DNA of 64,000 nucleotides from Pelagibius sp. CAU 1746. GTDB lineage: Bacteria; Pseudomonadota; Alphaproteobacteria; Kiloniellales; Kiloniellaceae. Position 1 is the first letter of the stretch. Each line of letters starts with the position of its first letter. A program made the translations under genes and the position numbers. The notes below the pieces were generated by a model, which made no database searches, had not been told where the DNA came from, and worked only from the letters and a program-made list of their open reading frames with translations. This document shows positions 51,504 through 58,989 of this stretch, piece by piece. The DNA lies in contig NZ_JBDOQT010000001.1 in the NCBI RefSeq assembly GCF_039839785.1, positions 2,914,001 to 2,978,000 of the forward strand, in the 5' to 3' direction.

Positions 51504-51899
51504 ATGCGCGTCAGGAGTGCCCTTTCGATCCTTCCCATCATCCTTGCCGCTGCGCTTGCCGGCCCGGCTTTCGCCGATGGCGACCCGGCAAAGGGTGAGA
51601 AGGTGTTCAGGAAGTGCAAAGCCTGCCACGCCGTCGAAGAGGGCAAGAACAAGGTCGGTCCCTCGCTCTTCAACGTCGTCGGACGCACGGCGGGCACGGT
51701 CGAGGGTTTCCGGTACTCCAAGGCGATGGAGGCTTTCGGGGCCGACGGCCAGACCTGGGACGAAGACAATCTCAGTGCGTTTCTGGAAAAGCCCAAGGAT
51801 CTCGTCGACAAGACCAAGATGGCCTTCGCAGGCTTGAAGAAGGAAGAGGAGCGGGCCGACGTGATCGCCTACCTGAAGCGGTTCGGCAAATCCGAATAG
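51504..51899 (+). CDS. Class I cytochrome c, c2/c550-like
   Basis: 131-residue periplasmic electron carrier. Signal peptide (IILAAALAGPAFA, cleavage near residue 24), heme motif C38-KA-C41-H42, distal Met106 in TKMAFAG, and the fold landmarks VGPSLFNVVGRTAG and VIAYLKRF. Looks like a small soluble c2/c550 carrier. Followed by a terminator. Confidence 0.93.
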   Translation: MRVRSALSILPIILAAALAGPAFADGDPAKGEKVFRKCKACHAVEEGKNKVGPSLFNVVGRTAGTVEGFRYSKAMEAFGADGQTWDEDNLSAFLEKPKDLVDKTKMAFAGLKKEEERADVIAYLKRFGKSE

Positions 51900-54560: not shown

Positions 54561-55532
54561 ATGAAATCAAAGAAGAAGATGCTTCTGTCTAGCAGCATGA
54601 TCCCCTTGCTTATGCTGGGCGGTGCTACCCTAGGCGGCGCGGCGATGACCGCCGTGTTCACGGCCCCGCCTGCAGAAGCGGCCTGCAATCCCTGCAACCC
54701 CTGTGCCGCCGCCAACCCCTGCAACCCCTGCGCGGCAGCCAGTCCGTGCAATCCTTGTGCAGCAGCCAACCCTTGCAATCCCTGCGCGGCAGGGGGGGGT
54801 GCCAGCGCCGCGGCTTGCACAGTGCCGCGGCTGCAGACCGCAGCGGCGGCCAACCCCTGCGCGGTCGCCAAGCCGCGTAATCCCTGCAATCCTTGTGCTG
54901 CGGCGGCAAATCCCTGCAATCCTTGTGCAGCGGCAAACCCCTGTAATCCCTGTGCTGCGGCAAATCCTTGCAACCCCGGTGCAGCGGCAAACCCCTGCAA
55001 TCCTTGCAACCCTTGCGGTGCGGCGACAGCCGTGGAGTTGACGGATGAAGAGGCGGTGAAGGTCTACGATTGCCTCTTCCCGACGATGAAGGCTGCTTAC
55101 GCCAAGTCGGACAAGGGCGATGCCTCGGGCTATTCGAATTGGCGGCGCTACAGCACGCAATCCTACGTCTCGGCCACCCACGGCAGCCGCTACGTACAGA
55201 ATTACGCCAATGCTTCCGCAAAGGCCTACGGTGCCTATGAGGAGGCCGGGGCGTTCCCGCCGGGCGCAAAGCTGGCAAAGGACAGCTTCATGGTGAATGC
55301 GAAGGGCGAGGTTTCTGTCGGGCCGCTCTTCATGATGGAAAAGATGCCGGCTGGCTTTAATTCAGACAGCGGCGACTGGCGCTACACCATGGTGATGCCC
55401 AATGGCGCGATTGCTGGAACCACGAACGGGCAAGGCTCCGCGAACGTGGAGTTCTGTATAGGCTGCCACATTGCTGTGGCTCCGGAGCAGGACAGCGTAA
55501 TGCTCCTGCCAGAGGAATACCGCGTCAAATAG
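54561..55532 (+). CDS. Cys-Asn-Pro-Cys repeat protein fused to a cytochrome P460-like domain
   Basis: 323 residues in three parts. (1) A signal peptide ending AEA about residue 40. (2) Residues 42-152: arrays of NPCNPCAAA with 21 cysteines, only one repeat with Gly140 replacing a Cys (NPG), broken by a segment without CNPC (about residues 76-97). (3) Residues about 155-323: a domain with [39 protein letters not shown] and one c-type heme site C299-IG-C302-H303. The last part resembles cytochrome P460. The ATG at 54561 follows GGGAGG. The repeats would be exported, so many thiols or disulfides, or metal binding, are possible. Function unknown. Confidence 0.85.
54684..55016 (+). repeat. Tandem repeat encoding Cys-Asn-Pro-Cys arrays
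   Basis: Direct repeats of 27-30 bases of the type GCAAACCCCTGCAATCCCTG, each encoding about nine residues (AANPCNPCA). Units differ mainly in synonymous positions, such as CCC/CCT and TGC/TGT, so the protein sequence is conserved more than the DNA. A run of seven Gs occurs near 54791-54797, in the break between the two arrays. Confidence 0.85.
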
Positions 55533-58284: not shown

Positions 58285-58989
58285 ATGGCGGTCCCGAAGT
58301 GGGTCCAAAACACCAGCCGGTTGGCTGTCGTCCTGGCGATTCTCGCCGGCGCCCAAACGGCTTCCTCGCAACCCGTGACAGAACCGGGCTTCAGCGGCAG
58401 CGAGGCCTCGGCCGCGGCGGAGCCGCGGGGGTATCGCTTCAGCGGGCCGCCGGAACGGCCCCGCCGGCACTTCCGCGTCAGCAATCCCGCGATTCTGTCC
58501 GCCGCTGAGGCCGAGTCCATCTACGACGGTCTGAAGGCGGAGATGGCCCGGCGCTACGCCGCGAGCGGTGACGCCGCCGCCGCGTCCTATCAAGGCTGGG
58601 CCAGGTTCAACACGGCTCCCTACGGGTCGTCGACCCACGGGCGGCGCTATGTGAACAACTACGCCAACGACATCGCCCGCGGCTATGGGAAGGCGGGGAC
58701 GGCTGGCCGTCTCCCGGTGGGCTCGATCGTCGCGAAGGACAGTTTCATCGTGACCGAGAAGGGAGAGGTTCAGCCAGGACCGCTCTACGTCATGGAGAAG
58801 ATGCCAGCGGGCTTCAGCTACGTCACCGGCGACTGGCGCTATAGCGTGATCACCGGTGCCGGCGAGTTGGCCGGGCGAACCGAGGGGCCGGGAGCCGCTC
58901 GGGTCGAGTTCTGCATAGCCTGCCACCTGGCCCGGGAAAAAGAGGACCACCTGTTCTACGTCCCGGAATCCTTCCGCAGCTCGCCGTGA
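58285..58989 (+). CDS. Cytochrome P460-like protein, paralog of the 54.5-kb domain
   Basis: 234 residues: signal peptide (LAVVLAILAGAQTASS), a linker of about 60 residues, then the same domain as in the Cys-repeat protein: [43 protein letters not shown], and the heme site C210-IA-C213-H214 near the C-terminus. There are no CNPC repeats. GGAAGGAG is close before the ATG. It is divergent from the MFS gene. Confidence 0.85.
   Translation: MAVPKWVQNTSRLAVVLAILAGAQTASSQPVTEPGFSGSEASAAAEPRGYRFSGPPERPRRHFRVSNPAILSAAEAESIYDGLKAEMARRYAASGDAAAASYQGWARFNTAPYGSSTHGRRYVNNYANDIARGYGKAGTAGRLPVGSIVAKDSFIVTEKGEVQPGPLYVMEKMPAGFSYVTGDWRYSVITGAGELAGRTEGPGAARVEFCIACHLAREKEDHLFYVPESFRSSP

Follow-up and report, generated by a model that had tools for sequence, protein, structure and literature searches.

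A cysteine array fused to a cytochrome P460 domain

The window, a stretch of 64,000 nucleotides from Pelagibius sp. CAU 1746, carries a gene that combines a predicted signal peptide, a cysteine-rich repeat array and a C-terminal heme domain of the cytochrome P460 family. We refer to its product as the array-P460 protein. Its features, together with two further genes of the window, are listed below.

54561–55532, + strand: array-P460 gene, encoding signal peptide, Cys array and P460 domain, 323 residues (translation, profile search)
54561–54680, + strand: signal peptide, residues 1–40, with AEA ahead of the first Cys (by eye; relatives alike)
54684–55016, + strand: Cys array, residues 42–152, 21 Cys (Tandem Repeats Finder, residue count)
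54816–54833, + strand: CTVPRL element, residues 86–91, separating the half-arrays (also seen in relatives)
55017–55532, + strand: cytochrome P460 domain (PF16694), residues 153–323 (profile search)
55071–55073, + strand: C171, a solitary Cys within the heme domain's first helix-like stretch, as is usual in array-bearing P460s
55278–55280, + strand: K240, which aligns with the lysine that forms the heme cross-link in cytochrome P460
55338–55340, + strand: E260 of the MEKM motif, a possible distal carboxylate, mapping uncertain
55455–55469, + strand: CIGCH heme-binding motif, residues 299–303
51504–51899, + strand: small class I cytochrome c, of a kind that recurs near array-P460 genes in relatives
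58285–58989, + strand: array-less P460 paralogue (PF16694), 234 residues

A preliminary description of this DNA had placed 21 cysteines in residues 42–152, ahead of a heme domain with one CxxCH, and both features were found. The 111-residue array contains, besides the 21 Cys, 34 Ala, 22 Pro and 19 Asn, organised as 18 NPC units, one SPC unit and one decayed NPG unit with 10 overlapping CxxC motifs; the cysteines outside it are C171 and those of the single CIGCH. Tandem Repeats Finder reported 27-bp arrays with scores of 116 and 153, or 159 if read as a 54-bp repeat, the highest among its six rows for the window. A density of five CxxC per 60 residues was reached by 1 of the 678 stop-to-stop frames of at least 50 residues in the window and exceeded by none. 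Export of the protein had also been proposed, and is predicted from a signal peptide recognised by eye in this sequence and in its relatives.

Because the 18 NPC units are written in seven DNA spellings (AAT 10, AAC 8; CCC 11, CCT 7; TGC 12, TGT 6), it is the protein sequence that is kept. The earlier claim of selection at the protein level is borne out by these synonymous spellings and by the conservation of frame and architecture in relatives. Residues 42–152 matched no Pfam family at E values up to 1, and the full-length protein matched no NCBIfam family. A gene for a Sel1-repeat protein (PF08238; 55537–56055) begins four bases past the array-P460 stop codon on the same strand and may be co-transcribed with it.

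The heme domain has a lysine at the cross-link position of cytochrome P460

A profile search confirmed the proposed assignment to cytochrome P460: PF16694 matched at 34.6 bits against a cut-off of 27 (E = 2.8e-8), and at 36.7 bits with the domain alone. Two further PF16694 proteins of the same genome (L001 and L002, on contig G000:C1) match far better than the array-P460 protein, with E values of 4e-27 and 3e-23.

Across 36 aligned domains a lysine, the heme Cys pair with its His and an HGxR motif are invariant. In alignments that are weak (E 0.0017 to 1.5), the K240 column corresponds to Lys70 of Nitrosomonas europaea P460 (2je2), Met79 of 7s5o and Phe61 of 7ead. The cross-link position is Lys in cytochrome P460 and Met or Phe in c′-beta, according to table 2 of PMC11928373. 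By its lysine at this position the window's domain classes, at the level of sequence, as a cytochrome P460 as opposed to a c′-beta. E260 is harder to place: in equally tentative alignments it coincides with Gly82 in 7ead, in 7s5o it lies six residues ahead of Ala109, and in 2je2 it faces an insertion. The position is Glu in 55 of 66 proteins by script, with two more by eye; it is Q, K, R or A in eight, and one protein is truncated.

These residues bear on a possible role in reactive-nitrogen handling, in which the P460 domain would oxidise hydroxylamine or bind NO while the array takes NO as S-nitrosothiols or gives thiol reductant. Such chemistry would suit the lysine, found at the cross-link position in 36/36 domains and aligned with that of N. 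europaea P460 rather than with the Met or Phe of c′-beta. However, the distal carboxylate for hydroxylamine oxidation, Glu96/Asp102, maps inconsistently among the templates, nitrification and NO genes do not appear among the recurrent neighbours, and the array also occurs on SoxA/TsdA-type cytochromes. We consider this role unlikely.

A Cys at the position of C171 was found in 61 of the 66 array-bearing P460s by script, and in 64 after three script misses were read by eye, versus 0 of the 23 array-less P460s compared. The exceptions are L212, L221 and L222, of one family, which have an array without this Cys, and L147 and L148, of genus g6, which have the Cys without an array.

The array varies in length and spelling and occurs in several contexts

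With the window protein as query, 78 loci were fetched from named genomes, including Kiloniellaceae, Pelagibius, Sneathiella and Ferruginivarius. An array-P460 gene was present in 65 of them, including loci of Pelagibius litoralis (L051) and Ferruginivarius sediminum (L094, L109), and an array frame without a P460 match in 29 (two of these being fusions to other domains); 23 loci had both. The 65 array-P460 proteins contain 9–49 xPC units per array (median 25) and 9–65 Cys (median 33), with an odd Cys count in 33 of them. Counting the window protein as well, 56 of 66 have an array split into halves by the element C-x-[VI]-P-R-[LIVM], the strict form of CxVPRL. In three proteins of one family (L212:4308-5210, L221:3215-4162 and L222:3023-4066) part of the array sits inside the P460 domain, following the strand that bears the cross-link lysine, and the rest stands in front of the domain.

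The preliminary description had made its reading depend on conservation of repeat number and Cys positions among relatives. In the 65 proteins surveyed, Cys density, the CxVPRL split, export and the heme domain are kept, but repeat number and exact Cys positions vary freely.

Stand-alone arrays of about 80–260 residues, predicted to be exported, are common; the window's genome has one (L146, G000:C1:358666-358944). The array is also fused to SoxA/TsdA-type cytochrome c (PF21342) in L110, L240 and L244 and to YceI (PF04264) in L111. Its spelling ranges over CNPC, CGPC (L063 is CGPC-rich), CGAC (L205, L206) and NPCAANPC (L208), and the gammaproteobacterial loci L240–L243 have NPC arrays with Met, His and Lys. 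A lipoprotein-like frame of 98 residues with GCCAAEGCC repeats (L256:5682-5975), a very different spelling, adjoins a DUF6969 gene. Thioredoxin-like CxPC chemistry was considered as a general rule and rejected, as the CGAC arrays of L205 and L206 have no Pro.

Export, thiol density and small residues are constant across the spellings. Judged from sequence, the array is a mobile module, and since repeat number and spelling vary while the architecture stays, selection seems to act on thiol density rather than on a fold. A plasmid search gave no match. The range of 9 to 49 units is what would be expected of a neutral or structural low-complexity linker that grows by slippage and does nothing specific. 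Against such a linker stand the seven synonymous spellings of the 18 units, the Cys density kept through replacement of CNPC by CGAC, the existence of stand-alone arrays and the co-occurrence of DUF6969 in 38/40 array genomes over 20 families; we regard it as very improbable.

Recurrent partner genes

Beyond what the preliminary description had covered, and as the larger finding, this mobile module recurs with a set of partner genes: DUF6969, an exported protein resembling formylglycine-generating enzyme (FGE-like), YeeE and cytochrome c. Near the 65 array-P460 genes we found DUF6969 (PF22308) in 33 cases, the FGE-like protein (PF03781) in 25, cytochrome c in 24, a YeeE-type transporter (PF04143) in 13 and a weakly cupredoxin-like protein, scoring below Pfam's cut-off, in eight. 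All of these are lower bounds, since many loci end at contig ends. The FGE-like and array-P460 genes are on opposite strands in 21/24 loci, usually no more than a few hundred bp apart, and in 13/24 the FGE-like gene shares a strand with DUF6969, which is within 300 bp of it. In the window's genome, pieces of the gene set are at three places, and the FGE-like and DUF6969 genes adjoin on another contig (L145, G000:C2, about 516.1-517.9 kb). The FGE-like protein encoded there contains GGSWDDRGCGVC. An AlphaFold model of DUF6969 had a pLDDT of 87.8; a comparison of its sequence with solved structures gave no useful match.

Arrays also lie in other neighbourhoods, the first of which is recurrent. 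Stand-alone arrays in L150, L151, L152 and L156 are accompanied by a VTT protein, a pyridine nucleotide-disulfide oxidoreductase and a histidine kinase; that of the window's genome (L146) has the VTT protein and the histidine kinase. In the gammaproteobacterial loci L242 (2113-4977) and L243 (64-3592) the arsenosugar-type genes arsS and arsM, in this order, lead directly into a Met/His-rich NPC array and then an array-cytochrome c gene; L243 has another cytochrome-like gene after these. ArsS (L240) and ArsM (L242) exceed the NCBIfam cut-offs, and the copies in L242 and L243 are 70–77% identical to these. Pentaheme cytochromes adjoin the arrays of L240 and L241. In a genome negative for NPCNPC, an exported Cys-rich frame with CSPC and CGAAKC (L251:5458-5874) ends 12 bases before DUF6969.

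Part of this context fits a thiol or sulfane-sulfur reservoir, in which the array cysteines would alternate among thiol, disulfide and persulfide states, acting for the heme domain as a store of electrons or sulfur. YeeE, a sulfur-transport family, is near 13/65 array-P460 genes; L110, L240 and L244 carry the SoxA/TsdA-type fusion; and the oxidoreductase and VTT protein flank the four stand-alone arrays named above. All of these neighbours nevertheless occur in a minority of loci, and a reservoir leaves the extra Met and His of the gammaproteobacterial arrays unaccounted for. It is the strongest rival to the explanation proposed below, if still a rather doubtful one.

The FGE-like partner is a relative of FGE

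The FGE-like protein of L056 matched PF03781 at 147 bits, against a cut-off of 23.3. Its motif is GGSWxDxGCG[VI]C, in which both cysteines are invariant in 25/25 aligned sequences and also in the copy of the window's genome. In PDB chains of known FGEs the corresponding motif is GGS[YF][LM]CHxSYC, and this catalytic Cys pair is not kept in the FGE-like proteins. Because the FGE-sulfatase profile is present but the catalytic pair is absent, the partner is, on its sequence features, a relative of FGE and not an FGE. Of ten further copies, eight showed GGS, with no GGS match in L206 and L209. A structure model of the FGE-like protein had a pLDDT of 79.8, with residues 259–262 beside CGVC below 50. 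The gammaproteobacterial FGE-like gene of L240 is without CGVC and was left out of the FGE-like family counts.

Two candidate recognition sites for this protein were rejected. For CxVPRL as a CxPxR-like substrate element, similar elements are kept in FGE-negative genomes, namely CVVPRL (L215, L218), CDVPRL (L217) and CEIPRI (L216), and the L212, L221 and L222 proteins have none. Recognition of CNP in each repeat is at odds with CGAC arrays that lie beside FGE-like genes and have no Pro (L205, L206).

Co-occurrence of array, FGE-like protein and DUF6969

We counted genomes and used Fisher tests without kinship correction. Among 98 relatives, 37 had the array, 36 the FGE-like protein and 53 DUF6969. 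Array and FGE-like protein occurred together in 33, the array only in four, the FGE-like protein only in three and neither in 58. In the window's family, nine genomes of one genus have none of the three, and the other 14 all have array and FGE-like protein, 13 of them with DUF6969.

Within 385 genomes of the window's class, the array, by the strict pattern NPCNPC, was found in 40, the FGE-like protein in 32 and DUF6969 in 90. Kinship ignored, DUF6969 was present in 38/40 array genomes versus 52/345 without the strict array. DUF6969 is present in all 20 array-containing families, and the FGE-like protein in 13 of them. Conversely, a Cys array accompanies the FGE-like protein in 31/32 genomes of the class, 24 by the strict pattern and seven more by inspection beside the FGE-like gene: eight FGE-like genomes were NPCNPC-negative, and another Cys array lay beside the gene in seven of these, the exception being G490. 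For G490 and for G023, G030 and G037 (genus g6), an FGE-like gene was present and no array was found. An FGE-like match was absent from 16/40 array genomes, with at most six candidates scored per genome. DUF6969 occurred in 45 genomes negative for both array and FGE-like protein; among 20 of these loci that were fetched, four held a Cys array (L246, L247, L251, L256) and 16 had none within the stretch. A sample of 398 genomes across the phylum gave seven matches, three in the class and four in one gammaproteobacterial family.

The association with the FGE-like protein raises the question of whether the array is an enzyme substrate whose cysteines this protein oxidises or cross-links, so that a modified, metallophore-like protein would arise with no MNIO enzyme involved. 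The 31/32 genomes are in keeping with this, as is the placement of the gene, which in 21/24 shared loci is on the opposite strand and is usually no more than a few hundred bp away. It is nonetheless improbable: no FGE-like match was obtained in 16/40 array genomes (at most six candidates scored in each), four genomes have the FGE-like gene with no array found, the catalytic pair GGS..C....C is replaced by GGSW..xGCG[VI]C, and genomes that are FGE-negative still have CxVPR-type elements (L215, L217, L218).

A putative metal(loid) trap coupled to heme

We tentatively favour, at somewhat less than an even chance, an explanation in which the array-P460 protein is exported and its thiolates trap soft metal(loid)s, most likely Cu(I), with the trap coupled to the heme domain. 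The flexible, thiol-packed N-terminal half would bind soft, thiol-loving metal or metalloid ions in the periplasm, while the C-terminal c-type heme domain would swap electrons with small cytochromes c. Whichever way the coupling runs, this exchange would tie the array's metal loading or thiol oxidation to the respiratory chain. The protein is one member of a gene set with stand-alone arrays, DUF6969 and the FGE-like protein. Sequence shows the architecture, the P460 membership, the partners and their co-occurrence; metal binding, the identity of the metal, electron transfer, the direction of the coupling and the partners' role are inferred. Of the two parts, the heme coupling is the weaker proposal, ranking below metal binding.

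Soft metal(loid) binding, with Cu(I) as the most likely ligand-bound ion, is suggested because thiol density outlasts spelling changes, and because of the odd Cys counts, the Met/His-rich variants, the arsenic genes and the FGE-family partner. Copper-binding segments use Met and His along with Cys. An odd count in 33/65 arrays also means that full disulfide pairing is not favoured. The ArsS and ArsM genes before the gammaproteobacterial arrays point to arsenic, which is thiophilic too, and are counted for the trap. Enzymes of the FGE family are cuproenzymes, and PMC12452194 reads fusions of bufferin, cytochrome c and FGE as copper-related. Electron exchange is suggested because P460 and the SoxA/TsdA-type cytochrome, heme c domains that are unrelated to each other, both occur fused to the array, and because cytochrome c genes are near 24/65 array-P460 genes. 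Also counted in favour of the explanation are the extra Cys at the C171 position of array-bearing P460s and the array pair of L244 near a bufferin maturase gene.

Several observations count against the trap. The recurrent neighbour families included no recognisable copper transporter or chaperone, the YeeE neighbour points to sulfur, and array number and Cys spacing vary freely. The bufferin neighbour was seen at L244 and in 0 of 114 other loci, and the C171 pattern has exceptions (L212, L221, L222; L147, L148). Genomes with the FGE-like gene and no array found (G490 and three of genus g6) and the 52/345 genomes with DUF6969 but without the strict array also count against it. A broader proposal is an MNIO-independent system in which DUF6969 and the dithiol FGE-fold protein help to build exported arrays into a metal- or sulfur-loaded polymer, serving as a redox cofactor of the heme enzyme with C171 as relay. 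We regard this as conceivable but speculative.

How the periplasm deals with copper and other thiophilic elements is still being mapped, and P460 cytochromes matter for N2O emission. Here a P460-type heme domain is tied to up to 65 Cys, and DUF6969 is a near-constant companion, which gives the DUF6969 family a first testable context and points to arrays as a further means of metal or sulfur handling, next to metallothioneins and bufferins. A literature search mostly outside subscription journals found no description of the NPCNPC array, DUF6969 or their gene set, and no paper on P460 with metallothionein or on Pelagibius with P460.

Comparison with known systems

The array resembles metallothioneins in its small residues and very dense Cys. 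Metallothioneins are cytosolic and not known to be fused to heme, unlike the array-P460 protein. Within the FGE family (PF03781), the partner is alike in its profile match and differs in having CG[VI]C, with the spacing of the active-site Cys pair lost. The heme domain shares with the cytochrome P460/c′-beta superfamily (PF16694) a profile match above the cut-off, CxxCH and Lys at the cross-link position, but its PDB relatives match weakly (best E 0.0017), and the N-terminal Cys array and C171 do not feature in the excerpted account of the 2025 review (PMC11928373).

Bufferins and Buf_EGKCG/oxazolins are similar to the array in being exported, copper-related and rich in repeated Cys, with fusions to cytochrome c and FGE reported in PMC12452194. 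They are, however, MNIO-modified, whereas the array has no Pfam match and its loci lack MNIO: the gene was found in 0/114 array loci, and none at all in 18/37 array genomes, so the array was rejected as a bufferin. At one further locus (L244) a bufferin maturase gene (BufB) and a pair of stand-alone arrays are about 5 kb apart.
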